NCBI RefSeq assembly: GCF_001625215.2
Contig: NC_030381.2
Location: forward strand, 55,822,714-55,886,713
Source of the DNA: Daucus carota subsp. sativus
Taxonomy: Eukaryota; Streptophyta; Magnoliopsida; Apiales; Apiaceae
Reading direction: 5' to 3'
DNA: 64,000 nucleotides
This document shows, one piece after another, positions 26,591-52,098 of this stretch. The position numbers and the translations under genes are program-made. The notes beneath the pieces are model-generated. The model had not been told where the DNA came from and did not search any database. It saw nothing but the letters and a program-made list of their open reading frames with translations. How positions within the stretch are numbered: position 1 is the stretch's first letter; the number at the start of each line of letters is the position of its first letter.

Positions 26591-26599
26591 CCATTAAAA

Positions 26600-27417: not shown

Positions 27418-27549
27418 GCTATAGTTTGTTGATAATTTTGAGTCTTTAGGTTGACTGATGTTTGAAATTTTCATATTTTGTGGGATTTTTTTTAGATTTA
27501 AGTAGGTAGTTTTCGAGTTTTTGAATCTGTTGGTTGTTGGGGATTTTCA

Positions 27550-30138: not shown

Positions 30139-30312
30139 CTCTATCTCCCTCCTCATCTCCTAATCAAGACACCTACATAATTAATTACTAACTTATAATC
30201 TCTGTATCACTAAACAGTTCGGTTTGTTTATAGCTCTACTTTCTAATTAATTACAAACTTATAATCTCTGTATGTCGAAACAGTTCGGTTTGTTTACTCT
30301 CGATTTGGTGGG

Positions 30313-33300
30313 ATGATGGAATGGAATCCATCTCTGAGGATAACAAGGAATCGGCCTGATATGCTCCACAGATATAATCCCAATTTCTATGCTGATCCTC
30401 CCGCCATCGCCCAACTACTTGAATTCTCTGTCAAGAGAAAGGTAACGTTTTTTCCTAGTGTACTGTAGATCCTGAAGCAGTGTTTTAATCGACTGTTTTT
30501 CTTTGCCTCTTAGTTGTTAGAGAGAGATTAGTTGCTTGTTTAACATTGATTCATTGTATTTGGATATACTAATTTTGGATGATCAGGCGGCGCGGGGGAA
30601 AGCTTTGCTATAATGACAACTATTTTGAAAAGAAAATGATAGGTTTAGGGTTGTAATTTGAACCAACTTAAGACTTCAACTGCAAACATCACATTTGTTT
30701 TTATCAGCTCGAGTTGTTTGAGCCCTATGCATATGCAATTTAACTTAAGTTATCATTTTCTCACGGGTCCATCTACTACCTTACTTAATGATTCATGAGC
30801 TGATAGAGATAGATACCACTACATGCAACTTCCCTTTTGGATTCATCAACCAAAGACAAGGAATTTTAAAATAAATAAAATGTTATGTTATAACTTATAT
30901 ATAGTTTTGGACTCTCTTTTCTATATAACACAATCCCCCTTATTTTATTTGCTCTCAAGGCTAATATTGATATTGCAGAAAGACACATTTCGTCACTTAA
31001 TTCGTAAAATCAAGAAGGGATTCCATAATGGCCAGATGGAGAAGATTGGAAAGTGCACAAACGAGTTGGGAAAAATGATTAGAGAAGGTATAAGAATCTC
31101 TACTTTTTCATGTGTTGGTTGACAATACATTGGAAATATATTTTTTTTTCACTTGATTCTTTTTCGCAAACAGATCCGAGGCTGACTCAATATCTTGATG
31201 TGAATTTCCTTCAACTCCTCGCTGAGTTGCTTAAGTGTGAACAATATTCAGACCTCCAGGTTTGTTGTGTTAATGGGTTGTGTTTATTTTCAATGTTATT
31301 TTGTTTCATTTCTGCACAACATGTGTAATATCTTTGTATTCCTCGACAGGTACACGCTGCCACCATCTTTAAACCGGTAGTTACCTTTTCCCTCACCAGG
31401 AAGGATGTTAAGGATCTCGTTGTTATGATTGAACATATAATTCCAATTGTTGTCAGACTTATATGCTTTGGAGTTTATCTGGTGCGGGTGGAGGTAATCT
31501 TTTAAGAAGAAAGAGTTTTTTTTTTTTTTTTGCTTATTTTGTTAATGTGAATATGTTGGAGCCACAAAACAATTATTTTGTTATTTTGTCTAACATGTAG
31601 GCTCTTTGGTTATTGCGCACTCTTGTTTCTGTAATTTCAAAATATGAAGTTGAAGAAATTTTATCCCCAGTGACATCTTTGATTATTGAGGATTCTACTA
31701 GTTTTAATGTGTTACATGCCGCCTCTGCGACTTTGCTAGTTGTTTGTGAGGAACATCCAAATATTTCTCCTGAAAAGGTTATATGTCTGTCTTATGTTAG
31801 TCAATCCTTGTATCTAATTTTACATTCATGTCCATTTTCTTATGATTATTTATAATACATTTTCAGTTGAAGTTGACCCTTCCGGCTTTGATGAAGCTTA
31901 TCGAGTCTAATATATTGATGTTACTGACATCTGGAAGTTGGGGACTTGCATTTTTGTGCGATGGACGGGGAGAGATGATAGTTGAAGATAAATACCTTGA
32001 ATGTCTCATAACTCGTCTTGTTGATCTCATGAAGTAAGTAAATTAGTCATGTCACTTTACAGTTTTATGTGGATAGATTGGATGTCAACTAATTCCTAAT
32101 GTTGATGGTTCAGTGCTGAAGAACGTGTTATGATCCTCTCGGCACTTCATGCAATGGGAAGTGTTGTGAAATGGGGTAGTGATGACGTTATTGAGGTATG
32201 GTGGTGTAATCATAAGTTTCAAGTCAAGACACATATTAGGAGCTCCATTTATATGTGTTCATATATCAATATTCGTATTGGCATTCGTTGGTATGGTGTT
32301 ACATTTCATTGATCAAGTTAAATAACATAAAATTAGAAATAAGTAATAACTCTTGGATAAGTTGCGCTACTAAAAAATCAACATATTTTAAAAACCCGTT
32401 TTCATGAATTTATAAGGAAACATTGAAAGTACTATGTGTCTTTAGCTTTTAGGTTGGGGAGAATCATGTAAGTTAGATTACGTGATCGTGTTGTGTAGAA
32501 AGATTTGATTTTATTTGTGTACAAAAGTTTGATTGTGTTAGAATATATGTATTGCAAGTGGTGAGTTATGTTTTATTTATTTTGAAATCGTGATTTTGAA
32601 TAGAAGCTTTGGCGAATAAGCTACTATCTTTTGTAGAGAACTATATTTTGTAATAGTATTTTATCTTCTCCAAATTACATTGTTGTTTCTATGATATGAT
32701 CATGTTAGATAAAATTTTCACATAAAAGATTTATTTAACTTACTTTTTCTTTTATATTTAGATTATTTAGACACTGTCTGATTACTAGCCTGATACTTCA
32801 CAGCACATGTTTATCGATCGAGTTTTTTATATTTAATCTTCTCAAATTTATTTATTATGTTCTCTTTTTTCTAGATTATAATCAAGGAGGACGGTGCACT
32901 GCTCATCTTTTTAGTCTTGTTAGAAGAAGATGATTTGTACATTGTGAAACAAACTTGTTGGATACTTTCAAACATTACTGCAAGAAAAGAAAAACATATA
33001 CGGGTGAGTTTGGAATTGATTACTCCATGAAGATGCAAACAATTCTATTTGCATGGAAGTTGATTGAAGTTTACATTATATCATGAATTCACTTTTTTTA
33101 CCAAAATATCTTTAAAATTTTAGCTTCCCCACTTATTGTCCCATTTATGTCTTCTAGTATCATTTTAGATATGGGTGTTAATATCTAATATCCATAAATG
33201 CTTTTCTAGGCTATAATTGATGGTGTCCCAGAAGGCAAGTTAATTGACCCCCTTGTCAAAATTATGCTTAATTGCAATTTGAATGATGTAAGAAAGGAGG

Positions 33301-33839
33301 CGGCTTGGGCAATTTCTAATGCTATGTGTGGTGTTGGTATTGATCAGATTGAGTATGTGTTTTTTATGAACTATTTCAATGTTTTATAAAGATTAAAATA
33401 TCAATTTCAATTATCTTTTTCATGTTCATATAAAGATAATGTGTGTCAATTCCAATTTCTTAACAGATGCTTGAGGAATAGCTGCTCTAATATCATTTGG
33501 GCTGATCTGTTGAATTCATTCTCCAGTGATAGATTATTTGTCTTGGTTACTTTAGAAGGTTTACTCAATATTAGAGTAGCGGAAGTCACTTGGATGGGGA
33601 ACCCAGTTGATGCTGTGACGTTGCACTCGTTTTTTGAAAGCATACTCGAAGGCATAGATCATAGGGATTCCTTTATTGTATCTGAGTTCTTCAATGAGAG
33701 TGATGGGTGGACTGTATCTGGGCATTCCTTAATTCCTGAATTCCTCATGTCCAACGACTATGCTCTAAACTTTAAGTTTGAAGATCAGCGGTGTTCGAAC
33801 ATGTTTATAGATTATAATGGTTCGATGGAATTTTGTTAG
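30313..33839 (+). CDS. Importin-alpha-like armadillo protein, copy A
   Basis: Ten exons join in frame with GT-AG borders: 30313-30441, 30979-31087, 31174-31259, 31350-31493, 31601-31777, 31867-32033, 32114-32195, 32875-33003, 33210-33352 and 33467-33839, giving 512 aa. Importin-alpha binds nuclear localisation signals and links cargo to importin-beta. Family signatures are clear in the C-terminal half: CWILSNITA (Trp327, Asn331), KEAAWAISNA (Trp374, Asn378), then LEGLLNI. The N-terminal 70 residues do not look like an importin-beta-binding domain, though KRKKDTFRHLIRKIKKG at 41-57 is basic. In the repeats that should form the major NLS groove most Trp/Asn pairs are replaced. After the ARM region a tail of about 80 residues (FFES, ESDGWTVSGHS, FKFEDQRCSNMF) is not importin-like to me. 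No disabling mutation is seen. A shorter start two codons in is possible. Confidence 0.85.
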
Positions 33840-34069
33840 GTTGTGAATGGATAAAGTGAAGTCTTGTTTATTTGATGCTGCTGCTAAATCAATCTATTCA
33901 ATCATTTAATTATTATAATTTGTTTCAATTTGATGGAGTGTAGCACTTGTCTTATATCATATTGCATTGGTTAGATTTTTTGCCTAATTTTTTGTTAATT
34001 CAATAAGATTGCGTAGTACTGCTATATAACAATATTATATAGATCTGATTTCTTTGGGTGTTTAGCTTT

Positions 34070-34363
34070 TAGGTCTTCGTTACTTTAGAAGGTTTAGCCA
34101 ATATCAGAGTAGCGGAAGTCACTTGGAAGGGGTATCCAGTTGATGGTGTTACGTTGCACTCGATTTTTGAAGGCATACTCGAAGGCATAGATTGTAGGGA
34201 TTCCTTTATTGTACCCAGGGTCGTCATTAACAGTGATGGGTGGACTCATTCCTCATATCTTGAGTTCCTCATGCCCAACGACTATACTCTACACTTTATG
34301 TTTGAAGATCAGCGGTGTTCGAACATATCTCTAGATAATAATGGTTCGATGAAATTTTTCTAG
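34070..34363 (+). pseudogene. Duplicated last exon of importin-like gene A
   Basis: About 34070-34363 repeats most of exon 10 in frame, from VTLEGLANIRVAEVTW to the tail (DQRCSN, NGSMKFF) and a stop. It belongs to a tandem duplication of roughly 520-530 bp (33540-34068 and 34069-34591) that includes the 3' flank. It is absent from unit B. It lacks the first part of exon 10 and is probably non-functional unless used as an alternative 3' exon: 'gtgtttagcttttag' just upstream could act as an acceptor. Confidence 0.75.
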
Positions 34364-34704
34364 ATTGTGAATGGACAAAGTGAAGTCTTGTTTTATTTTG
34401 TTTCAATTTGATTAGAATTTGTTTGATAATAATTTCATTTGTTGGAGTGTAGCACTTGTCTTATACCATATTGCATTGGTTAAACAACATTGAGCTTTTC
34501 GCCCAATTTTCGTTGATTCAATAAGATTGTATATAACTGCTATATAACAATACTATATAGACCTGATTTCTTTGCGTGTTTACCTTTTAGGTCGGAGAGA
34601 ACCACATTAGTTAGGTTATGTGATCGTTTTGTGTAGTGTGTATAGAAATTTGGAGTTTAGTAGAATATATGTATTGCAAGTGGTGATTATGCTTTTGTTA
34701 ATTA

Positions 34705-36040
34705 CTAGTTGATAGCACGTGCCAAGCACGGTTTAAATAAAATTTTAAAATTTGTTATTTATTGGAAGAATAATGTCTTTTTTAATTACATTATTATATT
34801 TTTATTATACCTATTTAAATTGGTATCAATATTGAATCTTGTTTATTTTAGTTCTGAAATACGATAGAAGTTTTATAAATTTGTTTCGTAAATTAAAGTG
34901 TATGAGTTTTGAAAATTAAAACGAATATTTGACGTATGTCTAGAGTTTTGGTTCTTTTATTATATGTTGCAATATGGACAACAAATTATTATTTTTTTTT
35001 TAAGTTTCCATCAAGTCAGTGTTACCACCGTCTTATTCGTCTTTATCGCAATCTTCTAAAAAATATTGAATGATAATAATTATTTTTATTAAAAAATATA
35101 TGACCAATTTTTTTGGTACTTTGGTATCAATATTGAATCTTATTTATTTTGATTCTGAAATACGATAGAAGTTTTATAAATTTATTTCGTAAATTAAATT
35201 GTATGAGTTTTAAAATTTAAAACGAATAATTTCGTTGACATTATTATTTATTGATAGGATATTATATTAATATCAATGAACTCCTTATTTATTTAAAATC
35301 TGAGGCATGATAAAAGATTTATAGAGTTGTTATGTATATTAAATTATTTGAGTTTTAAAAAATTAAAACAAATAATTTTGTCGGTAACATATTTTTATTA
35401 GTAAAATATTGTTATAATACAAAATCCTGTCAATTATTGAATTTTTTTATAATAGTAATAATTGTTAAATAAAAATTAATATGATGATAGCCAATTTTTT
35501 ATATGAATTTTATAGAACTGTTTCATAAGTTAAATTGTTAGTGATTTAACTGTGCGAATTAAATAAATGTTAGATTACAAAATCCTAAACACCATAGAAG
35601 TGTTTTTATAGTAGTATAATAATTTTAACCAATATTGAAATTTTTATTAATAAAATCCGAATCAATATAGAAGTCTTTTCATAATTGTATAATAATAATT
35701 ATAAAATCCTAAAAATGTATAATAATAAGTATAAAATCCTAATAATATAAAAATCTTTTCATAATTCTATAATGATTGTTGTTATTAAATAAAATATTTA
35801 TATTACATTGTCCTAATCAATATTAAACTTTTTAATAATAAAATTCTAATCAATATAGAAGTCTTTCACTATCCTAATGAATATTGAAGTCTTCAATAAT
35901 AAAATTCTATTGAATATAAAAGTCTTTTAATAATAATATAACAATGACTATAAAATCCTAATCAATATGAAAGTGACCAAATTTTGATACTTTTGGTACC
36001 GATGTTCCACCGAAAAGTAGTTTCGCTTATTAATAAAGGA
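34705..36040 (-). mobile_element. Non-autonomous Helitron in unit A
   Basis: Read on the minus strand it begins TCCTTTATTAATAAGCGAA after an A and ends CAACTAG before a T, the A|T insertion rule of Helitrons. A 5-bp-stem hairpin (CGTGC-TTG-GCACG, 34718-34730) lies 9 nt before the terminal CTAG. It is 1336 bp, AT-rich and non-coding. Unit B has the uninterrupted counterpart near 52420-52432 (ttttgataattatttcag), so the empty site is visible. Confidence 0.85.
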
Positions 36041-36204
36041 TATTGATTTCAGCGATTGTGACTATGTCTAGTAAGTTGTTTGTAATTGTTGTGGAGGTTT
36101 TGGGTCACGTATCAAGTAGTGGTATGAAAAAAAGGTTTCTGAATGACGAAGAGTTGAGACCAATGCCATTAGTGTAAGTAGATAGGTTTGGATTTATGTA
36201 GGCG

Positions 36205-36455
36205 GAAATTAGGGCATCTCCAACCATCACTCTAAACTTCATATTTCTTCACTTTTAACTTTATAAATAGAGTAATCAATTTCCAATCATCCATTACTCT
36301 ATCTCTATATATAAAGTCATGCACTATCCTACTATATATATGAAGTTGAACTTGAAGATAAAGCAAAAATTGCTTTATTTATAAAATGAAGTAATGGTAT
36401 AAAGATATAGAGTAGAAAAGGTGAAAAATGGAGATGAAGTTGCTTTATTTATAAA
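36205..36455. mobile_element. Degenerate PIF/Harbinger-like MITE in unit A
   Basis: The left end GGGCATCTCCAACCATC follows TTA. The segment is absent from unit B, where 'ggaaat' runs straight into 'aagtctgatgatg' (about 52624-52630). The right end is eroded, though a TTA follows at the junction. No coding content. Confidence 0.5.
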
Positions 36456-36616
36456 ATCATAGTCTTAAGTCCGATTGTCTGATGATGTTATAAGCAGGTC
36501 AGCTTATGAGAATGACAGCTGATAGTGATTAGGTAATTTCCGAGTACTATGCTGTGTAATTCTATTTTTGCTTGCTAAACTAAAATGTGTACTGTCTCAA
36601 ATTTTATTTGTTATAG

Positions 36617-36736
36617 GGAATGGGGTTTTCTTAGCTGGTTTGTTACTTCCATATATGTGAGAAGAAGATGTATTTTGGCTGATGGTTGCATTACTCAAAG
36701 GAGTTGTTCATGCCCCTATGAAAAGGTTGTATTTTG
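36617..36736 (+). pseudogene. TBC (RabGAP) domain exon fragment, copy A1
   Basis: The frame reads NGVFLAGLLLPYM, stop, EEDVFWLMVALLKG, VHAP, characteristic of the TBC domain of plant RabGAPs, which stimulate Rab GTPase hydrolysis. The TGA at 36658-36660 breaks it at a codon where related sequence is open. It is bounded by a plausible acceptor (TTATAG) and donor (TTG|GTAATT). Confidence 0.8.
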
Positions 36737-36869
36737 GTAATTATTTCAGCTCCAGAACACATTGATTTGAATATTTGATGTTACTATATTCTGTAATTTG
36801 ATCCACAAGCTTGAGAGATGGTCTCATTTCCTAACAGTTTCTCATTTATATATCTACTCTTGCTCATAA

Positions 36870-38410
36870 TTACATTAATATTTAAGTAGTTTTATATCGA
36901 ATAGTTTTATTTCTAAAAGTTATATTATATCTGTAGTTGAAAGATAATATGTAATTTTAATAAGTCATACATTTTAATATTTAATAATATTCACATTCAC
37001 ATATCATAGTCTATTCTACAAAAATGAATTTAAAAATTTTAATGAATAGAATTCATAAAAATTATACTCCCTCCGTCCCGGTCATTTATATACAAATGAT
37101 TTGTACACGGAGACCAAGAAAATATGTAAAAAATGAGTAAAGTTAGAGAATAAATGAGTAAAGTGGTGGACCCATTTATATTTAATTATAGATTTGAGAT
37201 TGTGGGGGAAATTAGTGGGTTTAATAGTGTTTATATTATTATAAGAGGAAGATAGCGGAAAAAAGTAGTAGACGTAATAGTGTTTTATATTATCAAAAGT
37301 TACTATTCTTGGAATGTATAGAAATGATGGGACATCGCAAAAAGAAAGCGGTATAAAATTGACTGGGACAGAGGCAGTATAAATTTTGTTTATTATTAGT
37401 AATATAACATAATTTTGTTTGTCACAGCAACACATCAATCTACAACGCTGAAGGAATCTCTCTATCAACTTAACCTCCAATTGAAAAAATATAGAATTCC
37501 TTTTGTTAAGTTCAACTCTGTAAGACATTTTAATCCTTTTTTATTTTAAGTGACAAGGCAACAGTGTGTTGTGCTTTGAACTCTAATAAAACTATTTATC
37601 AGTAAATAACATAAAACATGCAAAGGCCCAGCAGAGCAGGTTCAAATACAATTAATAAACATATACATACAACATATACATACGTTAGAGTTACCGGACA
37701 CATTTCCTCTGTAATCACTGAATATTGCTCTATCTCCACCCAGCTGATTTTCGATTACCACCATTAACTCTGAGATATAATTCCCAGATTCAGCCACCAA
37801 TCACTATATCATATCGCAAACATCACTAATATATGCTGCAAAAATCACCAATTTATACGACATTGATCACTAAAACCTATCAATATATCATTGTATATAT
37901 CATTAACATTACAAGCTACCACACCTATGCTACCAGAATCTTATCGCCTCAGTTTTTGCCACCATCATCTTAACACCACAGCATCATCACCATCTCAATC
38001 ACCATCACGGCACCTCATTTATACTGATTATCAGCATATATATGTCAGATGCAAATCTCGAGGCGGAGCTCCGGCAAATTGGACGGCTAATCTAGCCGTT
38101 ATCCTGACGATCATGACTTTTCCATTCAGTAGTTAAGAGTTTGTGGTTCTGAGATTTTGGAGAAAGAAAATTAGAAGAAGCAGCGGGAGAAAATAAGAGG
38201 GGTGGGGTTGGGGTTGGGGCGGCGGTGGGTGGCAGGTGGTGATTACAGTGTCAGGATGGCTAGTTGCAGGGGGTGGGTGACTGATTGCAGTGAGGGGTTG
38301 AGTTTGTTTAGTGATTATATTCAAATAATTAGTGATCTTTTTAGTTTTTAGGCTGAGCTTGGTTTGTATTTGATCAACTCCCTATGACCCTATATATATA
38401 TATATTAAAA
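36870..38410. other. Unit A-specific insertion of unclear origin
   Basis: Unit B runs directly from 'gctggtctcattt' to 'actttgtccatcagttgc' (about 53205-53228), whereas unit A has about 1.5 kb between the same points. It includes a Stowaway (37067-37377), a CAT/CAC-rich stretch (37940-38010) and a G-rich stretch (38195-38275). No gene or element ends were recognised for the whole. Confidence 0.45.
37067..37377. mobile_element. Stowaway MITE
   Basis: Inverted ends CTCCCTCCGTCCCGGTCA and (reversed) CTGCCTCTGTCCCAGTCA are flanked by TA target duplications (37065-37066, 37378-37379). 311 bp, non-coding. Confidence 0.85.
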
Positions 38411-38465
38411 CATATGTTCCTTCACTTTGTCCATCAGTTGCAAATAGCATGTGACCATGTCCCTT

Positions 38466-38610
38466 TATTATATACCAGACTCGAAATTTATAGATTATGA
38501 GAATTCATATGTGGCGATATCAATTTGCTTCGCTTCTTTGTGTTGTTTAGTATACGTAAATGGAGTTCTAGTATTTCGCAAGCCAGTGAATGTTCCATAT
38601 ATGCTCTGCA
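38466..38610 (+). repeat. Dispersed repeat copy (TBC intron related)
   Basis: Matches 53257-53395 and 22916-23050, from 'accagactcgaaatttatag' to 'gttccatatatgct'. In units A and B it lies in the same relative position downstream of a TBC exon, supporting an intron origin. Confidence 0.7.
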
Positions 38611-39134
38611 TTTGTGTTTCCATAGAATCCTAAAAGTTGGACTAGTAGTAGCATGAGAGCTGAGTCCTAGCACGAGACCTGTCCATGTCTTCCTCTAGGT
38701 CTGGCAGTTAAGGACTAGCTTCTTACCTGTTACAAGCAATTGAATTAATATTTTGGTTTTATCATATCAGGTTTGATGATAACTTTCAGGTGAGGTCCCT
38801 TTACCTTTAAAATTGTGTTTAGATGGAAAACTAATTCTCTCTGGCTGTTTGGTTGGTATAATTAATTGGACGTGGATGGATACCTATGTATGGAACTGAT
38901 CAGATGTACGAGTTTTTTTTTTTACTGTTTAGTATATGGTGTTGATACCATCTTGCTTTTTTATACATCGTCTTTGGTGCTCACCCGATCTCCGCTGGTT
39001 GCCTGGATATTAAAGTTTTTGATAGTTAATGTACTATTTCTGTTTGTAGTTTTTTGCTTTATGCTTATTCTTCGTTCCCTATTTTCTTCAAAGTGCCCCC
39101 TATCTTGAGTGTTTCTCTTGTTTCTATTTAGTCT

Positions 39135-39275
39135 CGTGGTTGGTGTCAGCAACTTGTTATTGATGAGGTGTCAGCTTCAGAACTAGATATAATTCACAAT
39201 ATTTCTCGCATGTTCCCCTCACATGTTTTTTTCCAGCAAAAACATGGTCCTAGCAGAGGTCCCTTTACAACATGT
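39135..39275 (+). repeat. Short segment shared with 54180-54300
   Basis: The run 'gtcagcttcagaactagatataattca' followed by 'attcccctca'-like sequence occurs in both units. In unit B it leads into an LRR-kinase remnant; in unit A it stops first. Confidence 0.55.
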
Positions 39276-39387
39276 TAAAGGCAAACTCAGTCTATGACAG
39301 ATGTTGGATATGTGCAGGTTATTTGTTAAATTACATATTAGTTTGCCTTTGTGAAAATATGTACCATCTAAAATTTATTTGTTATAG

Positions 39388-39504
39388 GGAATGGGGTTTT
39401 TTAGCTGGTCTGTTGCTTCTTTGTATGTGAGAGGAAAATGCATTTGGCTGATGGTTGCATTACTAAAAGGAGCTCTTCATGCCCCTATGGAAGGGTTATA
39501 TTTG
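39388..39504 (+). pseudogene. TBC domain exon fragment, copy A2
   Basis: Second unit A copy of the same TBC exon (LAGLLLLCM, stop, EENAF, LMVALLKGALHAPMEGLYL). It has the same TGA (39428-39430) as the other copies plus its own small frame losses near NGVF and the Phe-Trp position. Sequence on both sides resembles that around 36617. Confidence 0.8.
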
Positions 39505-39829
39505 GTAATTCTTTCAGCTCCAGAAGACATTGATTTGAATTTTTAATAACACTATGTTCTGTAATGTGATCCACAAGTTTGGTAGCTGGTCTAATTTCCT
39601 AGTAGTTTCAAATCTTTTTATATATTCTTAAAAATTATGTCCCTTTACTTTGTCCTTCAGTTGGAAATAGCATGCTGAAAATATATGATTGTTTGTTTGT
39701 TACTGTCCAGTAGTGTCATCCTCTTATGTGAAACCTGTTTTGAGATTACTTACTAAGCATTGTGCGTTCTTCATCACTTAGCAGGTGCCGTTTACTATGT
39801 ACTGAACAATATATGTTGGCTACTTGCAA

Positions 39830-40285
39830 GTTTCGACACACCTAGTAAGGGCCAGTTTGACATTGTGTTATTCCAAAAGCAGCGAAAAGCGGATTGTTCG
39901 AAGATATATTCAGCGGGAAGGCTATCTTCTGATAAATCTATACTTGATGGATAAGTTGTCCCTCCTTGATTCTCAAGTTTCCTGTTGGCCCTCTTGTAAA
40001 CTTTATTTTCTGCTTGCTAGCTTTAGAAGTTATAGTCAAACTGGTAAGGTTGTGGTTTTGACCCCTGGTGCCGGAACCTTTGCTAATTTCGCCCTGAAAA
40101 AGCTCACTTTCTCTAAGAAGCTGGTGATTCCCTCTCTGGTAGGCTGCAAAGGTAAGAATCTAGAGCATCTTGTCAACCTACTGAAGAAAGGCAAACTTAA
40201 GACTGTTATGACTCGAAATTTCATTTGAGCCGAGCTGAACAAGCTTGGGCTAAGAGCAACGATGGCCATGCAGTTGGGATTTGGG
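39830..40285 (+). pseudogene. QORH C-terminal fragment in unit A
   Basis: About 40040-40228 encodes GKVVVLTPGAGTFANFALKK, LTFSKKLVIPSLVG and LEHLVNLLKKGKLKTVM, the C-terminal region of ceQORH. A TGA and a frameshift follow, then LGLRATMAM-type remnants of the family C-terminus. Upstream, 39830-40030 is the intron-like sequence shared with 19385-19620. It is more diverged from the 28 kb copy than the copies there are from each other. Confidence 0.75.
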
Positions 40286-40289
40286 GAAG

Positions 40290-41560
40290 CTTCTAGTCTG
40301 TTTAACTGAAATATTTGTCGTCATGTGTGATATGAGACAATATAATGTTTGGATTGTAATGCTGCCTTTATCAAGTTTTTAATATCACGTGTGTTATGTC
40401 CGCAGTACATGGTTAAGTCGATACAAACATCTCTTTTGGTTTGAATTCAATTTCATTTAGTAGTTTATGCACGCTTATCTGTTGCCACTCCCTTAATTAA
40501 TGAAACCAGAGAATACATGCTCCAAGTTTCATGTGACCACCACAACCAGTTGCCTTGTTCTCTTCCCAGTTAATACTTAATTGTAATAGCCCGTCTTCTC
40601 AGAATCTGATATAGTGAAGTTGGATCTTCATCGCTCATTTTCCTGCTATGATGATAACTTGATTAATCAAACTGCACATGTTTAGGCTACAGTGTCGAAA
40701 GAGCTACCACTAAGTTGGATCCCATCGACCGCTGCAAAATCACTACTAATGCTTCTTACGAAAAGAAATTCTTAACTCTAGACCCAGTGGTGATCAAAAT
40801 CATCATTTTGATCCTGCAGCTACCAGCGCAACTATTTCACAATATTATCTGTCTAGAGAAGCCACATCTGATTTCTTTAAGTTTACAACATGATCACTCC
40901 CAAACAATTAAGGGGATGTTTATATCAAGGCAAGTAACAGCATTGTTGAACAATTATCAAACTGGCATTAAAATTCAATTTTACGCATACTTTTTTGATA
41001 ATTAGCGTGTCTATACTTCAAAAAAGGCACTTAATAATACCTGATTCCTTAAATGATGTTCACCTGTGGGGAAATTTACTATAATTAACAAACTTTGGAC
41101 AAGAACATAAATTTGATACACAAATAGTATAATAGAAAAAGAGAAGAGAGTATTTCGATACCAGATAGAACCATAATGCAACTCCAAGTACAGAGAAAAT
41201 ATCATCAGACAGAGACAAGGGACTGATGCAGTTTCAGTTCCAGAGAGAAATTGTAGAGATGCATCTGTTGACAGCAAAAAGAGGCAAATGCATAATGTTA
41301 GGGTCTCTATATCGTAGGGGTAAGACTACCTTCTCACTCACTCCGCTTACACTATCTGACAACGGACAATATTGATTTACATGATAACATGATGCTCTGA
41401 GGTTAAGGAGTAATTACTAATCATAAAAATGATGCTCTGAGGTTAAGAAGTAATTAATAATCATAAAATTCATTGATCGGATTTGAAAAGATTAGCAGCG
41501 ATATCAACATCTCATTACAGACGAAAATCCTGACGACAGAGCCTGTCAGAAACACAGATA
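40290..41560. other. Spacer within unit A
   Basis: No recognised gene. At 41390-41465 a unit of about 40 bp ('gatgctctgaggttaag...aatcataaa') is tandemly duplicated. The rest has no recognisable element ends. Confidence 0.45.
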
Positions 41561-41849
41561 TCTAAACCAGATAGTATGACACTACAAAAAAACTTGCTCT
41601 TCCAATTTTTTTTCATAATACTCATAATCACAAAACCTTCAATTGGAACTGAAGAAAGTAGGGATACTACAGCATAGCTAGAACCCTGATGATAATAATG
41701 GGAAACTCAGACATGATATGAACAAATGAGTAGCAGTCTGCGTGATCCAGCTTGCAACATATCAATATCCTGTTTAACAATGACAACTCTAGTTCCAAAA
41801 AAATTCTTACAATGATAAAGGAACAAACGAAGCAAATTCTATTTCAAAA

Positions 41850-41965
41850 AAAAAAATCCTTCTGATGATAAAGGGTGCTGGAACAGGAAACTTGATGTAA
41901 AAACAAAAAAAAAAAAAAAAATCTTATGATGATAAAGGGTGCTGGAACATGAAACAAGAAACTTG
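41850..41965 (-). repeat. Tandem duplication in the DUF6598 gene A 3' region
   Basis: A unit with 'gatgataaagggtgctggaac' and 'aaacttgatgtaaaaa' is present twice in a row, separated by an A-run. The corresponding part of unit B (about 57460-57510) has it once. Confidence 0.7.
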
Positions 41966-42141
41966 ATGTAAAAATTTACTACATTTCAAGTGAAATAGAT
42001 TGCACAGAATACAATTGTATCTTCTAAATGTACTTCAAATTAAATAGCCCAACTCAAAAGCATTTATGCCCAGTCAGACAAGGCTGATATAACAAACATT
42101 GGCTAATAAATATAGTACATCCCCATACTTGCGCTTCAGCT

Positions 42142-43435
42142 TCAATGGGATTTCTCCCTAGATCTCCAACTGACTTCCACTCTGAGCTCACCTTTGCTGC
42201 CGCTAATAGATTTGGTACTTTTCCCATCATCAATAGCATCGAAAACTAGATAGTCTTCAACCATCTTATCAGAATCTTTTTTGCCATCATTATCTTTTCC
42301 ACTCAGGTTGATTTCTAGAATTAGCTGATGTCCCAATGGCACAGCTACAATATCTCTCAGCAAAGGAATTACTATGTCACCGCCGCTCCCCAACTCTATG
42401 AAAATTCCACACTCTTCATTGAAGATGATACTTGAATAAGCAGGACGTTCAATCGCGCTTGTCCTAGCAGCTATAACTCCGCAAAGAACAAATGGATTAA
42501 CACAATTGGTTAACGTAACCTTCAAACATGCTTCCACCGCATTATTAAATATTGCATACAGAATGTTAAAATGTCTAAATCCATCTTCTGACACAAAGCT
42601 TTTTCTGAGAGGGACAGAAAACTTCTCGGGATCGTGATACGGATATTCAAAAGTCAACTTCTCATACGTGAAATCAAACAGATAAAAACCGACTAAAAAT
42701 CCATCTTTGGCACGAATTGATGATGTAATACAACTATTCGGTATTATATGATCCAAAGATTTAATTGGTACATGTGAAGTCTGCTTACTCCTTTGTTGGA
42801 GGCAAAGATGCGCACAGTCTGGGTTATTGTCGTCATTATTTAACATGAGCAGTGTGTTGTTGATGACTTCATCTTCTAGGCCTTGATCCTTGAATAAGCA
42901 TTGGTAACCAGTTTCACTATCCTTGCACACAATTATACCTCGCAAGATATCATCACGGCCTTGATATTGTACCCTGTACACCTCTGCCAATTCCTGATAT
43001 ATGATACATACATCAGCTTTAGATGAAAAACTACATAAATAATACAGTGTGGTCACTACACAACTGATTCCACTTGAACCAAACAGACCCTAATTATATT
43101 TTTCATATAAATACTTGATATTTTTTGAGTAGAAGATAAAAAACAAGTGCATAGGTTGGTTTAACGTTAACCATTAGCTTTTGAATCTTATCAGTAGCTA
43201 ACAATAGGGGATCTCATGTTCTTTGATGGTGTATATCTATATAACCTAATGAAATACAATATAACAAGCTTATAAATCTAATCAGTGGCTTAGATTAAGG
43301 GGCCTCATGTTCATCGATGGTGTATATCTATAATATAATGAAATACAATATAAACAATTAAAACAAAATAGAGATAGCAATCTAAGTCAATTAATCAGAG
43401 ACATCAAATAGGAGTTGAGGATTATAACATACCAT
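42142..43435 (-). CDS. DUF6598 / JIP60-like protein, copy A
   Basis: Intact 284-aa protein of unknown function. The coding sequence is the start codon alone at 43435-43433, the last three bases of exon 1, joined across an intron of about 440 bp to exon 2 at 42993-42142. Residues from about 160 to the end show the pattern I associate with DUF6598 domains: CGVIAARTSAIERPAYSS, then GDIVIPL, AVPLGHQLILEINLSG, YLVFDAIDDGKSTKSI and GELRVEVSWR. DUF6598-type sequence is found in JIP60-like proteins, where a RIP domain precedes it. Here it stands alone with a different N-terminal half (RVQYQGRDDILRGIIVCKD). No signal peptide or membrane segment is evident. Family assignment is from memory of the pattern. 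Confidence 0.7.
43190..43355 (-). repeat. Tandem duplication inside intron 1 of DUF6598 copy A
   Basis: Two units of about 85 bp share 'ctcatgttc', 'gatggtgtatatctata' and 'taatgaaatacaatata'. Copy B has one such unit (about 58680-58770), so the duplication arose after the segmental event or was lost in B. Confidence 0.65.
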
Positions 43436-43559
43436 TATCACTGGGCGAGAAAGAACGTCCCGCTTGTGCCCTAATTTTGCTGTTTGTGGATGGCTCCTTC
43501 CCAAAGCGAACACACTGGTCAATTCCCCTTTTTGGTCAGGAGGCCCGTGCCCAGTTAAA

Positions 43560-45690
43560 AGATGATTTCAGATCAATAAATATGAACAGTTATAATACTA
43601 AAAAAAAAAATATGATTTCAAAATATAAATAAATAATTATATATATATTTACATAAATGGAATATATATTTTCATGTTTTAAATTAAACAAGATTACACA
43701 AGATTAGGTTTTGTTCTATTCTTCTTAAGTTTTAAAACTAAATAGAAGTAGATTTTATATATAATATTTCTTTTACGTTCTAAATCAAATAAAATAAGAG
43801 TTTGTTAATAATAATATATAAGTGAGTTTTATAATTAGAATACGGTTTTGTTCCTAAATCAAATAAAAGAGGTGATACTGAAATTCGTTGTCCCGCTCTC
43901 GTTCCATTCTCTTACCACACCAGTCAACCAATCAGAAAATAAAAATTATTTTAGGAACAATCAGAGATCATCTCTAAATTATTATCTAATTAGAACTTTA
44001 TATAATTATATAATTAAATAATAACAATGTTTCATATTTACTTTAATATAATTTATTAAAAGAGGTGATACTAAAATTCGTCGTCCCGCTCTCGTTCCAT
44101 TCTTTATCTGCCTCCCCAAGCACCATGAATACTATAAAAAATAAATACATAAATTATTATATATAATATCAAATGTATTTTTATTATTCGTTTCTTAGAT
44201 TTTATTATTTCATATTGCAATATGATTTAATAATAATGATTTTATATTTATTTTTTAATAAATTATTATTAAATATTGATTTGTATCGAGTGATTAAATA
44301 ATTAATTTCAAAATATATTCTTATATATTTTAAGTAATTTTAAAATATTGAGGATTTTCGCAAATTCTTGGAGGGATCTTTATTTTCCACTCAAATGAGG
44401 ATCCAAAAGCAAACTAATACAAAATCGACATAGTTGTAAATTTAGAAATCAGGATGAAATTAGATTTTGTTCAAATTTTGAATTTCGAAATTAGGAGCAT
44501 GGATTGTGTTTGGTGATACACGAACCGATAGTCGATATTTTTGTAATATTTGATTGAAAAGAAATATGATTTACTCTATATTTCATTTAATATTATAAGA
44601 GGAGTATTTATAGTTGATTAAATCAGATAATTCATAAAATAATATTATTTTTTGGAAAATGTATACCTATATATGTGTAACAAAGTTGTATACATGATGT
44701 CATCTATATTTGAATTTTATGACAAAAAAATCTATACTTGAATTTATATATTAACAAAATTACTTTTATTTAAAAATAACTGTTCGGTACCTAGCACGGG
44801 TAAATTGCTAGTTTTATTTCTAATTTATGAGTAGTATTAAGTATCCCAAATCCTGCTAACAATATATTTTTTTGTCAAATAACGCATCAAACACATAATT
44901 ATTTTTGTTAGGTGGTTAATATGCATACAGGAAATCTCATTATTATTACTGTAAATTGAACCGCTCGCACGTTGTCACATAGATCTGGAAATATTTTTTT
45001 GGATATTTAGTATTTTTCCTAACATGTTACATTAACAATTTTGAATCATAAATTATTTATTTAATCCTTTGTAAGATTGATACAGGCACCCCGGAAACGT
45101 TCGACTCGCAATGTTGCTCATAGTAGAAGTCATTTTCGCACAGTGTTGCAATAATATTTTATCCCTCTCTTGGAACACATTTTGAAGTTGTTTTTTCAAC
45201 GTTTGAAAATTGTTTCAAAGCTGATGTGTTGGTTTAAAATAGACGGGACAACTCAGTACATCACACGAAAACACGATACGAACATAACACGAAAAACTAA
45301 TGTATTTTATTTTTTGATAAACACATAAAAATGTACGAAAATCAAAATACACGATAAATTTAGTGTTGGATATAATTTTTCATTTTATATATGTGAAAAT
45401 ACACGAATGTATACGATATAAATATATTTTTAAATAAATAAATATATTTTAATGTGTGTGTGTATATATATAGTCTTACTCCAACAGAAACCTTCTTATT
45501 CTACAAACTAAAAACCAAGCCGGAATATCACTAAATTCTAAAGCAAATACCACAAAATTCTTAAACAACCACATTCCCACCTCCACATCCGCCACTACCA
45601 CCACCTTCCTCATCGCGTCCTCCATAACCACCACCACCTCTATGCCGCCCCGCCCATTCCATAATCATCATCTCCATTATTTCTTTAACA
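43560..45690. other. AT-rich spacer between units A and B
   Basis: No gene. A motif 'agaggtgatactgaaattcgt...cccgctctcgttccattct' occurs at 43868-43912 and again at 44058-44103. About 45115-45245 is the dispersed repeat shared with 13190-13345. At 45240-45420 'acacgaaaacacgatac'-type repeats resemble motif-rich MITE ends. A possible Helitron 3' end is at 44808-44811. Confidence 0.45.
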
Positions 45691-45694
45691 ACAC

Positions 45695-46081
45695 CAGTGG
45701 CGGAGCCAGAAAAAATATTCAAGGGGGGCACTTTTAATTTTTCGATTATTCTCAAAATATGTTATTTAATTAATTTTACAAATTCGAATAGCAACTACTA
45801 CAAATTGGAACAAACAGAAACATCCTACCCTTCAAATCTTATTTAAAAACCAACTTGCGACCACAACTGATTTAGACATACAAATCCTAGAGAAGCATGG
45901 TTATGCTGAAACTACTGCTAGAACTGAAATAGACCAAAACTGAGATGATTTCATGGAGAGATTTAATAATTTATCCGGGACACAAATAACAAAACATACA
46001 AGTATTACTAATATGTGGGGCCCACAAAGGGAAACCTGTGGGGGCACGTGTCCCCCAGGCCCCAGTGTGGCACCGCCACTG
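45695..46081. mobile_element. hAT-type MITE 1
   Basis: Ends CAGTGGCGGAGCCAG and (reversed) CAGTGGCGGTGCCAC, with a perfect 8-bp target duplication AACAACAC (45687-45694 and 46082-46089), the hallmark of hAT transposition. 387 bp, no transposase. Confidence 0.9.
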
Positions 46082-46092
46082 AACAACACAAT

Positions 46093-46412
46093 CAGGGACG
46101 GAACCAGAAATTTGGGTTGGGGTGGGCTTGACAAGTGAATAACGAAGAAAAATCTACTTTCATTCATGCTAGGAATCGGAAAAAAATGAAAACTGCACCC
46201 AGTTAATCAGCATTCTCTATTCTATTTTCTGGATCTACTTGATTATATTGATTTTGGACTTAGTTGATAGTGGGTTTGGGCTTACTTAACACACAAATCA
46301 CATAATATATATAACTACTAAACTTTTTTAAGAAAAACTTCCCCGGGCTTAAGCCCAGGAAAGCCCTTCTTTACATCCGTCTCAGGAAAGCCTTTCTTTA
46401 CATCCGTCTCCG
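46093..46412. mobile_element. hAT-type MITE 2, immediately adjacent
   Basis: Ends CAGGGACGGAACC and (reversed) CGGAGACGGATG are imperfect, but the 8-bp target duplication AACACAAT is perfect (46085-46092 and 46413-46420). 320 bp, no coding content. Its left target copy overlaps the right target copy of the MITE at 45695-46081. Confidence 0.75.
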
Positions 46413-46420
46413 AACACAAT

Positions 46421-47067
46421 TTCTACCTCCATCCTCACCAGCCCCATCTTGGTCGTTGCTTCAACATCCTTCAACACTTTTCATACTTCTTTCTCTACCT
46501 CGACTCAGCTTCAAAACGCGGAGGAGCGGCCGCTATTCCGGCAACGCTCCAACCCCCTACTTCGAGCCGCCCAAATCTCTGTTAAATCATCCTTCCTCCA
46601 TCTCGAAAAACTCAACTCGAACCATACTCAGTGTTGTTTATAATTTTAACCAACCTTCTATGGATGACTAAATTTGTCGAACCTCTACATATTTGTAAGA
46701 AATCTGTAGTAAAATTGCACATCATTTATTATCCTATTAAACTAATATATTCTATTTTAACAATCCAAAATATTAATAACATACTATTTTTAAATTATAG
46801 CCAAAGCAAAATGTCTTACGATTAGCCATAGCCGACGCCGCTCAGCGATATATATATTTTGTTTTTAGTTAGAAGCATAAACGACTTGGACAAAATTTTT
46901 AACGCAAACAAAAACTCACCGACTGATCATTCTCAACGCAGACCCAGGCCTTCTTCTCTCCTTGTTTTAGGGTTTATTGAGTATGTAAGTTGTTCTTCTC
47001 TGTGATATACGTAGGTATAACTACAAGTTACAACTTAATTTTATTCAGGGTTCGTTTTGTTTCCAGC
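46421..47067. other. Spacer before duplication unit B
   Basis: No gene supported. The last 150 bp (from about 46920) probably holds the promoter and leader of importin-like gene B; it differs from the matching place in unit A. Confidence 0.4.
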
Positions 47068-47262
47068 ATCCTCTGATTCTCCCCAGCATCCCCCATCTCC
47101 TAATCAAGACACATACATAATAATAATACACATTATTATTTACAAACTTATAACTCTGTATTACTAAAACAGTGCAGTTTGTTTACAGCTCTACCTTTAA
47201 TCCTACCCTGATCCTCGATTTGGTGGGACGATGGAATGGAAGAAAAGGAATCATATTCATCT

Positions 47263-50200
47263 ATGAGGATAACAAGGAATCGGCCTGATATTCTCCGAAA
47301 TTATATTCCGAAATCCTCTGATGATCCCCCTGCCATCGCCCAATTACTTGAATTCTCTGTCAAAAGAAAGGTTAGGTTTTTGAATTAATGTTTTAATTGA
47401 CTCTTTTTCTTTGCCTCTTAGTTGTTAGAGCGAGAAGAGAGAGATTAGCTTGTTGTTTAACATCGATTCATTGGATATACTCATTTTGGATATTAGGCGG
47501 GGAGGGCGAGGAAAAGCTTTGCTATATCACAACTATTTTGAAAAGACCATGATAGGTGTAGGGTTGTAATTTCAGCCCACTCAAGGCTCCAACTGCAAAC
47601 ATCACATTTGTTTTATTCATCCTTGTTTGCGCCCCACAGTGGCGGAACCAGGATTAAGTGTTAGGGGGGCTGAACTCAACCAGAAGATAAACTAAGGGAT
47701 AAGCTGTGTGTCTGTCTGCGTGTCTTAACCATCATGACAGAAAGATTTCCTATACTTTGAAGTCCAGATTAATCTTCATCTGTTCTCACATCACAGATAA
47801 AATTGCCTAACTGATTTGATAACAACTCCATGTCTAGTAAAGAGAAATCCTTTGGATAAAATTGTGTAAAGGCAGACCAGTTTTGAGTTATTGAAACTTG
47901 AAAAATTAATTCCTAGGAACCAAAGAGCCAATACAAAATGGTAGCTCTATGTTTCCTTCTGTAAAACGGTTATCCATCTCTTAGGAAACGGTTACCATAG
48001 CTCTATGTCTCCCTATGTATGTTTCCTTCGTAAAACGGTTTCCTTCAAATAAGTCAATGTGTGCATATGACTTATGAAAGCATGTCCAAAAGCTTTTTCA
48101 TATGGTCTCTTTAGCCAAAATTTGAAGAATATAGAGATGAAATGAACTCCAACAAGCTCCTAGCACCCCTTCAAAAACTTAGGAGCTCTGTTTGCTTCCT
48201 CAACAATGAGGAGCACACTCTCCCTCTTAACTATATTTTTTATTATTTTTCTCATGTACAAAGTACTCAACATGCATGATACAGTTTGTAGGTATACATA
48301 TTTTAATAACAGATATAGATAGGGAGCGTATGTAGGGAATATTGTTGGAGATATCGTGTAATTTTACTTCCTAAATGGTGAAGAGTTGATTGTTTATATT
48401 ATTTTTAGAGAAAAGTTAAGGAGTTTGTTGGAGTTGCTCTGAATGCATGTGTTTGAATATATATGTTAATTAGACTCTCTTTAGACTAAGTGCCTTCTCT
48501 CTTTTTTTTTTTACAATAAGTCCCTCTCTATAATATTTATAATTCAGCGGGGCTAAAAAAAATTATATTGACACCACTAATTCAGCGGGGGCTGGAAAAA
48601 AATATACACTGTTTTTTCCAGGTTAGGGGGGGGCTCTAGCATCCCCTAGCCCCCCTCTGGTTCCGCCACTGGCGCCCCATGCATATGCAATTTAACTTAA
48701 GTTATCATTTTTGCCCTGTTTGAAGGCTCCCATCTACTACCTTAGTTAATGATTCCCAAGCCGATAGAGGTAGATTTTACTTCACGCAACTTCCCTCTGG
48801 ATTCACCAACCAAAGATAGGAAATTTGAAAATAAATAACATGTTATGTTTATAGTTTTTGGCTCTTTTTTTTTTTTATAACAAATCCCCCTTATTTTATT
48901 TGATCTCAAGGCTAATATTGATATTGTAGAGACACACATTCATTCACTTAATTCGTGAAATCAAGGATGGATTCCATAATGGCCAGATGGAGAAGATTGA
49001 AAAGTGCACTGACGAGTTAAGAAAAATGATTACAGAAGGTATAAGAATTTTTACTTTTTTATGTGTTGGTTGGCAGTACATTGCAAATAGATTTTTTTCA
49101 CTTGATTTTTTTTCACAAACAGATCCGAGACTGGCTCTTTTTCTTGATGTGGAGTTTCTTGAACTCCTTGTTGAGTTGCTTAAGTGTGAACAATATTCAA
49201 ACCTCCAGGTTTGTTGTGTTAATGCGTTGTGTTTATTTCGAATGTTGTTATTTTGTTTCATTTCTACGTAACCTGTGTAACATCTTTGTATGCCTCGACA
49301 GGTACACGCTGCCACCATCTTTGAACCAGTAGTTACCTTTTTCCTCTGCAGAAAGGATGTTAAGGATCTTGCTGTTATAATAGAACGTATAATTCCAATT
49401 GTTTCGAGACTTATATGCTTTGGAGTTTATTTGGTGCAGGTGAAGGTAATCTTTTAAGTAGAAACAATATTTTCTATTTATTCTGTCAATGTCAATATGT
49501 TGGAGCCACAAAACATTTATTTAGAGATTTTGTTTATCATGTAGGCTCTTTGGTTATTGCGCTCTCTTGTTCCTGTAATTTCAAAATATGAAGTTGAAGA
49601 AATTTTATCCCCAGTGGCATCTTTGATTATTGAGGATTCTACTAGTTTTAATGTGTTACATGCCGCCTCTGAGACTTTGCTAGTTGCTTGTGAGAAACAT
49701 CCAAAAATTTCTCCTGAAAAGGTTGTATGTCTGTATGTTGGTCATTCCTTGTATCTAATTTTTTATGCATGTCTGTCAATCCTTGTATCTAACTTTACAT
49801 TCATGTCCATTTTGTTATAACTATTTATAATACATTTTCAGTTGAAGTTGGCCCTTCCGGCTTTGATGAAGCTTATTGAGTCTAATATATTGATGTTACT
49901 GACATCTGGAAGTTGGGGACTTGCATTTTTGTGCGACGGAAGGGGAGAGATGATAGTTGAAGATAAATACCTTGAATGTCTCATAACTCGTCTTGTTGAT
50001 GTCATGAAGTAAGTAAATTATTCATGTCACTTTACAGTTTTATGTGGATAGGTTGGATGTCAACTATTTCTTAATGTTGATGTTTCAGTGATGAAGAACG
50101 TGTTATGATCCTCTCGGCACTTCATGCAATGGGAAGTGTTGTGAAATGGGGTAGTGATGATGTTATTGAGGTATGGTGGTGTCATTAAAAGTTTCAAGTC

Positions 50201-52098
50201 AAAGACACATATTAGGAGCTCCATTTATATGTATTCTTATATCAATATCGTGTTGGCATTCGTTGGTATGGTGTTACATTTCATTAATCAAGTTGAATAA
50301 CATAAAATTAGAAATAACTCTTTCATAAGTTGCGCTACTAAAAAATCCACATATTTTAATTATACCGTTTTCATGAATTTATAAGGCAACATTGAAAATA
50401 CTACTCCCTCCGTCCCATTTAATTCTATACACTTTCCTTTCTGGGATGTCCCACTCAATTCTATACATTTCAAAACTTTCCTAAATTAGTTAATGGGTCC
50501 CACCACTTTCTCACTTTTCTTTCCTTTTCACACTACTTTTTACTCCCCTATTACTCTTTTATATATTAAAAATTAATGGGTCCCACCACTATACACACTT
50601 TTCTTTCTCTTTCCCATTATTTCATACTACTTTATACACTTTTCTTAGTCTCGGTGCCCATTTCATATGTATATTATTCAAGGGGACGGAGGGAGTATGT
50701 GTCTTTAGCTTTTGTGTTGGGGAGAATCGTGTAAGTTAGATTACGTGATCGTGTTGTGTAGAAAGATTTGATTTTATTTGTGTACAAAAGTTTGACTTTA
50801 ATAGAATATATGTATTGCAAGTGGTGACTGTTTTCGTATTTATTTTGAAATTGTGATTCTGAATAGATGCATTGGTGAATAAGCTACTATCTTTTGGAGA
50901 GAACTGTATTTTGTAATAGTATTTTATTTTCTCGAAATTACGTTGTTGTTTCTATGATATGATATGATCGTGGAAGGATGACCATGAAATTAGATAACAT
51001 TTTCACATAAGTGATTACAATAGAGTTTAACTTACTTTTTCTTTTATATTTAGATTATTTAGACACTGTCTGATTACTAGCCCGATACCTCATAGCACAT
51101 GTTTGTCGATCGAGTTTTTCATATTTGATCTTCTCAAATTTATTTATTATGTTTCATTTTTTCTAGATTATAATCAAGGAGGACGGTGCACTGCTCATCT
51201 TGTTAGTCTTGTTAGAGGAAGATGATTTGTACATTGTGAAACAAACTTGTTGGATACTCTCAAACATTACCGCAAGAAAAGAAAAACATATACGGGTGAG
51301 TTTGGAATTGATTAATTTACTCCATTGAAGTTTACACTATATCATGAATTCACTTTTTTTACCAAGTATCTTTAAAATTCTAGCTCACCCACTTATCGTC
51401 CCATTTACGCTTCTAGTATCATTTTAGATATGGGTGTAAATATCTAATATCCATAAATCCTTTTCTAGGCTATAATTGATGGTGTCCCAGAAGGCAAGTT
51501 AATTGACCCCCTTGTCAAAATTATGCTCAATTGCAATTTGAATGATGTAAGAAAGGAGGCGGCTTGGGCAATTTCTAATGCTATGTGTGGTGTTGGTATT
51601 GATCAGATTGAGTATGTGTTTTTTATGAACTATTTCAATGTTTTATAAAGATTAAAATATAAATTTCAATTATCTTTTTCATGTTCATATAAAGATAATG
51701 TGTGTCAATTCCAATTTCTTAACAGATGCTTGAGGAATAGCTGCTCTAATATCATTTGGGCTGATCTGTTAAATTCATTCTCCAGTGATAGATTATTTGT
51801 CTTGGTTACTTTAGAAGGTTTACTCAATATTAGAGTAGCGGAAGTCACTTGGAAGGGGAACCCAGTTGATGCTGTGACGTTGCACTCGTTTTTTGAAAGC
51901 ATAGTCGAAGGCATAGATCGTAGGGATTCCTTTATTGTACCTGAGTTCGTCAATGAGAGTGATGGGTGGACTGTATCTGGGCATTCCTTATTTCCTGAGT
52001 TCCTCATGTCCGACGACTATGCTCTAAACTTTAAGTTTGAAGATCAGCGGTGTTCGAACATGTTTATAGATTATAATGGTTCGATGAAATTTTGTTAG
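47263..52098 (+). CDS. Importin-alpha-like armadillo protein, copy B
   Basis: Ten exons, each matching copy A in length except the first: 47263-47370, 48930-49038, 49123-49208, 49302-49445, 49545-49721, 49842-50008, 50089-50170, 51167-51295, 51469-51611 and 51726-52098. The product is 505 aa with no stop or frameshift. The start differs from copy A because of a small insertion near 47244: the ATG at 47231 is out of frame and ends at a TGA overlapping the ATG at 47263, so 47263 is chosen. Like copy A it keeps CWILSNITA and KEAAWAISNA but lacks most other groove Trp/Asn pairs and a recognisable IBB. Exon 10 encodes the same private tail, with about eight substitutions in 123 residues. Intron 1 holds a 1-kb hAT element and intron 7 a Stowaway. 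Confidence 0.83.
47637..48671. mobile_element. hAT-type element in intron 1 of importin copy B
   Basis: Ends CAGTGGCGGAACCAG and (reversed) CAGTGGCGGAACCAG, with a perfect 8-bp target duplication GCGCCCCA (47629-47636, 48672-48679). 1035 bp without a transposase. Unit A has the uninterrupted site near 30717-30735 (gagccctatgcatatgc). Confidence 0.92.
48147..48442. mobile_element. Smaller MITE nested in the hAT element
   Basis: Near-matching inverted ends: AACTCCAACAAGCTCC on the left and, reversed, AACTCCAACAAACTCC on the right, extending to GAGC on the right. They enclose about 295 bp within the hAT element. The end motif resembles the GAGCATCTCCAA ends of PIF-type MITEs. No clear target duplication. 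Confidence 0.45.
50404..50695. mobile_element. Stowaway MITE in intron 7 of importin copy B
   Basis: Ends CTCCCTCCGTCCCATTTAAT and (reversed) CTCCCTCCGTCCCCTTGAAT flanked by TA (50402-50403, 50696-50697). 292 bp. The empty site is intact in copy A near 32431-32439 (agtactatgtgtc). Confidence 0.92.

Follow-up and report, generated by a model that had tools for sequence, protein, structure and literature searches.

We analysed a 64,000-nucleotide stretch (the window) of chromosome 1 of carrot, Daucus carota subsp. sativus (C1, 56,320,272 bases), which carries two genes for importin-alpha-like proteins, here termed A and B. Both have lost residue pairs of the major groove for nuclear localisation signals (NLS), and both keep the seven residues that clamp a Lys-Arg (KR) dipeptide in the minor groove. 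Each gene lies on the forward strand and consists of ten exons separated by nine GT-AG introns. Gene A (30313..33839) has 512 codons for 512 amino acids, with exons at 30313-30441, 30979-31087, 31174-31259, 31350-31493, 31601-31777, 31867-32033, 32114-32195, 32875-33003, 33210-33352 and 33467-33839. Gene B (47236..52098) has 514 codons for 514 amino acids, with exons at 47236-47370, 48930-49038, 49123-49208, 49302-49445, 49545-49721, 49842-50008, 50089-50170, 51167-51295, 51469-51611 and 51726-52098. According to the preliminary description of this DNA both copies are open over ten exons, and the deposited sequences bear this out: the model of A is identical, letter for letter, to the carrot protein DCAR_0105176 (P0001), and the predicted 'importin subunit alpha-2-like isoform X2' (P0002) equals B minus two residues, its exon 4 ending at an alternative donor that lies 6 nt further upstream. 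Splice alignment of a canonical template to A recovered exons 4 to 7 with identical borders and exons 3, 8, 9 and 10 partly. On B, exons 5 to 7 were exact, exons 3, 4, 8, 9 and 10 were recovered partly, and two pieces near the start were at odds with the ten-exon model. The ATG of B equivalent to the start of A (47231) is out of frame, exon 1 showing an 11-nt length difference, and an ATG five bases further on restores the frame; the start of B was therefore placed at 47236. A and B are a tandem duplicate pair.

When A was compared with importin-alpha sequences in PDB, the best match had an E value of 1.1e-34. Five carrot genes possess both the IBB and the Arm_3 domain and share their exon layout with A and B. 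Exons 2 to 10 of these canonical genes measure 91-109, 92, 132, 186, 164, 79, 129, 128 and 367-379 bases, and the first exon 198-213 bases in four of them (one incomplete; that of the fifth was not recovered); the ten exons of A measure 129, 109, 86, 144, 177, 167, 82, 129, 143 and 373. The nine introns and the matching layout indicate that A and B derive from importin-alpha by duplication at the DNA level rather than through RNA, and the introns exclude a retrocopy origin. Canonical plant importin-alpha, represented by rice importin-alpha1a in PDB and the five carrot genes, has the ARM solenoid, the intron layout and the minor-site KR clamp in common with A and B, whereas A and B lack the IBB, Arm_3 and the major groove and carry a Trp inserted at the P1' loop. 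In alignment A2, A shares 22-28% identity with the five canonical rows.

The absence of a recognisable IBB from both proteins had been noted from the sequence alone, and domain searches agree. Pfam matched neither IBB nor Arm_3 (ARM10) in A, and in the whole carrot genome there were 6 IBB matches and 8 Arm_3 matches, none of them within the window (two of the genomic IBB/Arm_3 matches, C8:27777858 and C3:6008153, were left out of gene modelling). In a set of 33 scanned proteins, made up of 28 family rows and 5 canonical controls, IBB matched 5/33 and Arm_3 5/33; in the precomputed domain lists both domains occur in the five canonical controls and in no family row. Exon 1 of A stands where canonical genes encode the IBB, and exon 10 encodes a degenerate ARM9 followed by a C-terminus specific to the family. 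In a weak shuffling test for an IBB remnant in exon 1, 13, 13, 147, 3 and 45 of 500 shuffles were as good for the five proteins tried. ARM10/Arm_3 is linked to CAS binding in the relevant part of PMC9699179.

Within the solenoid, repeats 2-4 are degraded in both proteins, as had been proposed. ARM2 (exon 4 of A) has Thr/Pro in A and in B where Trp/Asn is expected; ARM3 (exon 5) keeps only its Trp, reading Trp/Thr in A and Trp/Ser in B; and ARM4 (also exon 5) keeps neither residue, with Ala/Val in A and Glu/Val in B. The ARM5 Trp is retained, and neither residue of the ARM6 Arg/Asn pair is. By contrast, the Trp/Asn pairs of ARM7 (exon 8; Trp327/Asn331 in A) and ARM8 (exon 9; Trp374/Asn378 in A, together with Glu371) are present in both proteins, as also described before; read from the alignment, these two are the only intact pairs of the minor site. 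No Trp occurs in A between positions 5 and 158, nor in B between positions 1 and 160, and because the stretch before ARM3 has none, the ARM2 Trp cannot be rescued by shifting the alignment. An alternative exon model with an intact major site was likewise rejected: the three forward frames of 31100-31860 hold no canonical array, and in the family table introduced below, which includes A and B, Trp is absent both from ARM2 (0/25) and from ARM4 (0/28 rows).

Three protein searches, two of which scored the best 7996 candidates sharing most words, returned 27 relatives. Fifteen are from Heracleum sosnowskyi and 9 are records of Apium graveolens, both Apiaceae. The remaining 3 are contigs of 1572-1898 bases with uninterrupted frames of 477-544 codons, which we take to be spliced transcripts. 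Importins of other organisms also matched and were set apart as non-family, the sorting being done by alignment and groove pattern. So far the family appears only in Apiaceae, and its absence elsewhere is not proven. In a tree, 21 family rows separate from 12 other importins with a split support of 100/100 and a long stem. The Heracleum records lie on contigs of three sizes, and some of their locus numbers adjoin one another, a pattern expected of tandem arrays. In carrot we found A, B, a fragment of a last exon and, on C4, a relict interrupted by in-frame stops. The fragment (34073..34363, forward strand), outside gene A, duplicates part of that gene's last exon, with 81.7% identity where the two align; among the repeats listed for the window, none is a copy of this kind beside B. 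The C4 relict (L068, G000:C4:15753397-15757568) belongs to a second family subclade, like Heracleum P0016, and its ARM7-8 Trp/Asn are still readable; it has 5 in-frame stops with template P0016, 4 with P0019 and 1 to 3 with four others. Short matches also lie on C7 near 40426690. The family looks like one shaped by birth and death and by fast evolution.

Groove residues were tabulated in 29 rows (A, B and the 27 relatives), rows with a gap at a position being set aside and mouse importin-alpha numbering being transferred by aligned position. The table contains partial models and three pairs of records (P0011/P0005, P0012/P0010 and P0029/P0024), each probably a single Apium gene annotated twice; P0023, P0032-P0034, P0039 and P0040 were excluded as non-family or not fetched, and P0022 and P0035-P0038 served as other importins for comparison. 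The preliminary description had suggested seeking the same lost and kept residues in relatives, and the pattern proved to be family-wide. ARM2 keeps its Asn in 1/25 and ARM4 in 0/28; ARM3 keeps Trp in 21/26 and Asn in 9/25, and ARM5 keeps Trp in 8/28. ARM7 has Trp in 27/28 and Asn in 28/28, and ARM8 has Trp in 28/29 and Asn in 27/28. Over 209 columns invariant among nine canonical proteins, the family retains the residue in 37% on average. In mouse importin-alpha, the KR pair at P1'-P2' is held by G323, D325, W357, N361, E396, W399 and N403 (Pang and Zhou, PMC3946659), and the same seven minor-site residues are listed in the relevant passage of PMC12871931. All seven (7/7) are present in A and in B, among them the P1' pocket residues Gly292 and Asp294 in exon 7 of A. 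Across the table their counterparts are kept in 27/29 (G323), 29/29 (D325), 27/28 (W357), 28/28 (N361), 26/29 (E396), 28/29 (W399) and 27/28 rows (N403). Among further residues named in parts of the same two papers, the counterpart of S360 is kept in 27/28 and that of V321 in 25/29. The counterpart of E354 is kept in 0/28. At the major site, the counterparts of G150, T155 and D192, which we take to form the P2-lysine pocket, are retained in 0/26, 0/25 and 0/25 rows.

Rates of change were counted on a tree of 21 of the 29 rows (P0009, P0011, P0012, P0020, P0021, P0024, P0029 and P0030 were dropped), with a length of 8.2 changes per column. The seven clamp columns together underwent 4 changes, whereas a single column of this region changed 3.55 times on average. 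None of 100,000 random seven-column sets drawn over the protein was as slow, and 1 of 100,000 was when sets were drawn within the same repeat stretch. The eight major-site columns accumulated 45 changes, a total equalled or exceeded by 5059 of 20,000 random sets; the major-site columns behave as average columns. These rates bear on a first rival explanation, namely that ARM7-8 owe their conservation to a role as folding core or protein-protein interface in a cargo-independent scaffold that binds no NLS-like peptide. It would account for the overall slowness of the C-terminal repeats (3.27 mean changes per column in ARM8 and 3.92 in ARM7, against 5.37 in ARM2) and for the loss of the T328, ARM6 and P8' counterparts, detailed below. 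We nevertheless find it unlikely: within this stretch the seven kept columns change more slowly than the columns around them, and at the equivalent positions of ARM2 and ARM4 residues are free to vary, which shows that the fold can do without them.

The region of the clamp also has a feature of its own. The loop after ARM6 mostly reads GSIVRWGSD in the family and GSVVKWGSD in A and B, and GNVVTGDD, one residue fewer, in the canonical P0036. At the inserted position (Trp291 in A, exon 7) 27/29 rows have Trp and 2/29 Cys, and 12/12 other importins have a gap. The inserted Trp adjoins, in sequence, the P1'-pocket residues Gly and Asp.

Comparison of A with B gives a view of more recent constraint. 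In introns 2-4 the copies differ at 33/273 sites and in introns 5, 6, 8 and 9 at 25/456; intron 1 (53/495) and intron 7 (41/666) both hold large insertions in B. The intron 1 insertion (about 1 kb, 47640-48680) has inverted GGCGGAACCAG-like ends and is a dispersed repeat, with 86 matching pieces among the best 40 of 336 candidates; that in intron 7 (50404-50695), with inverted CTCCCTCCGTCCC-type ends, presumably is a short DNA transposon. Along the duplicated stretches (30246-34704 and 47135-52432) the 5' exons and introns differ by about 10-15%, and exons 9-10 with intron 9 by about 1-3%. The synonymous divergence (dS) drops from 0.21 in exons 1-4 to 0.045 in exons 5-10 (Fisher test on synonymous differences, p 0.0001). 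This falling divergence suggests that the 3' half was probably gene-converted. In exons 8+9 there is 1 nonsynonymous against 4 synonymous differences, a ratio of 0.07 (Fisher p 0.008); for exons 6-9 together the ratio is 0.14 (p 0.0008). Both ratios are uncorrected proportions from change counts. Constraint between the two copies is concentrated at the minor-groove region and is not visible elsewhere.

From this anatomy of homology, losses, kept clamp and constraint, which is read from the sequences, we infer a function. The family, descended from importin-alpha, has lost the IBB, the ARM2 and ARM4 pairs, the P2-lysine-pocket residues and Arm_3; it has kept all seven positions of the minor-groove clamp for a Lys-Arg dipeptide and gained the Trp beside that pocket. 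Short KR-type peptides, either nuclear localisation signals or similar basic motifs, would then be bound through ARM6-8 only. From what is known of importins, a basic peptide should still be bound because the KR clamp is kept, the protein should not load on importin-beta because the IBB is absent, and it should not be recycled by CAS because ARM10 is absent. The ligand would be held or competed for in place of classical import. On balance we consider it somewhat probable that A, B and their relatives are such ARM6-8-only binders of KR peptides, working without importin-beta and CAS as a trap, competitor or scaffold. A second rival keeps the transport function: the proteins might be adaptors independent of importin-beta that enter the nucleus by themselves with minor-site cargo, a role proposed for importin-alphas without an IBB in the male germline of flies. 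In its favour, the relevant passages of PMC8645118 state that IBB-less importin-alphas of S. cerevisiae and Drosophila have been shown to work in nuclear transport, and suggest beta-independent transport. We regard it as quite unlikely here, since Arm_3, linked to CAS binding, is gone as well, and recycling should fail; with both the IBB and Arm_3 absent, a trap, competitor or scaffold fits better than an adaptor.

Several observations weigh against the reading as a KR-peptide binder. The minor groove, which the preliminary description took to be kept, is so in its ARM7-8 pairs and in the KR-clamp residues around P0'-P2', and is altered in other parts: besides the inserted Trp, the ARM6 pair is gone (Arg in 3/29 rows, Asn in 0/29), as are the counterparts of T328 (0/29) and of the P8' pocket Glu (0/28). 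Affinity may hence be weak, and specificity beyond the KR pair should differ from that of the canonical minor site because the counterparts of the P8' Glu, T328 and the ARM6 Arg are replaced. The clamp has exceptions, namely P0031 (ARM7 Trp), P0017 (ARM8 Asn and the Gly), P0018 (the Gly), P0003, P0006 and P0008 (ARM8 Glu) and P0030 (ARM8, truncated). Conversely, the ARM3 remnants suggest that the major groove of some relatives may not be wholly dead. The tree tool warned of meeting long branches (the family and P0022), so we are unsure of the exact relation of the family to P0022 and to its parent importin. Finally, the ratio of nonsynonymous to synonymous divergence (dN/dS) between A and B over the whole gene is 0.63, not significantly below 1 (p 0.07); it is 0.69 in exons 1-4 (p 0.26) and 1.01 in exon 10, and exon 5 has 7 nonsynonymous and 0 synonymous differences.

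These last values lead to a third rival, in which A and B are on the way to becoming pseudogenes and functional relatives persist outside carrot. Besides the whole-gene ratio, it could draw on the in-frame stops of the third carrot relative on C4, on the displaced start codon of B and on the ARM3 Asn, which is missing only in A and B within their 9-row subclade. We hold it very unlikely, given that both frames are open over ten exons and that exons 6-9 are constrained. A ratio near 1, named at the outset as a sign against function, is clearly not seen in those exons, but the whole-gene value does not settle the point. With the frames open and exons 6-9 constrained, a pseudogene pair was rejected as the principal explanation, though the whole-gene ratio is not decisive.

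Elsewhere in the carrot genome, two importin-alpha-derived genes with the opposite groove loss were found on C8 (L049, G000:C8:1023500-1031500, minus strand) and C2 (L050/L051, G000:C2:13179000-13196000, plus strand). These retain the ARM2-4 Trp/Asn, and the Trp of ARM5, ARM7 and ARM8 is replaced by Leu, Arg and Cys. Arm_3 is present, and the genome's 6 IBB matches all lie away from them. They group with canonical L047 (support 99/97) and not with the family of A and B; theirs is a distinct lineage in which the other groove was affected. A more specific form of the KR-binder reading, which we put forward as tentative and less likely than not, is that the Apiaceae proteins with the extra Trp beside the P1' pocket could be a growing family of single-groove importin derivatives serving as traps for KR-type NLS peptides, and that the mirror type in carrot, with the major groove only, would complete a separation of the two grooves of one ancestral protein on IBB-less proteins. 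If so, the trapped peptides may belong to factors of the plant itself or to microbial or viral proteins bound for the nucleus.

Divergent importin-alphas have been described in other lineages. Arabidopsis IMPA8 lacks the IBB and is divergent; as far as the relevant part of PMC3659281 describes it, the Trp/Asn pairs of ARM2-4, 7 and 8 are retained and ARM5 and ARM6 are changed. A and B resemble IMPA8 in lacking the IBB and, having lost the ARM2 and ARM4 pairs, differ from its groove pattern of changes in ARM5 and ARM6 only. In Drosophila, IBB-less duplicates (alphaKap4, 5, 6, 2A and 2D-2H) have been gained and lost and are discussed in connection with male germline conflict, according to the relevant sections of PMC8645118. 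Like A and B they are lineage-specific and IBB-less; according to the same sections several are retrogenes or partly processed copies, unlike the tandem A and B with their nine introns. Human KPNA7 is likewise a divergent paralogue; it is described, in the relevant part of PMC2929220, as having a working IBB and identical NLS-contact residues. Among the top open-access titles and abstract starts we found no paper on an Apiaceae family or on a minor-clamp-only importin-alpha, which is weak evidence of absence.

As for other features of the window, WAACCGY, a DUO1-type promoter motif, has one match in the 1 kb upstream of A and none upstream of B, counts that are uninformative as to male-germline expression under DUO1. 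Two open frames with DUF6598 (42145-43089 and 57626-58483, both minus strand) lie in stretches that are 89.6% identical. An open frame at 17709-18563 matches the ribosome-inactivating-protein family (E 5.5e-6, 26.5 bits, cut-off 21), and one at 63369-63914, at the right window edge, contains a partial U-box domain. Repeated pieces at 25832-29094 and 39806-40225 (25832-26122 and 28802-29094 being 95.6% identical) resemble, in our view, a quinone-oxidoreductase-like gene; Pfam gave no match on two of these pieces.

The two NLS grooves of importin-alpha normally reside in one molecule, where the major site dominates. Evolution seems to have split them, with the minor-site clamp in one family and the major-site array in a second carrot pair. 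As natural single-site proteins they lend themselves to studies of the minor site in isolation, and they suggest that the fold of importin-alpha can be put to use as an NLS binder outside import.

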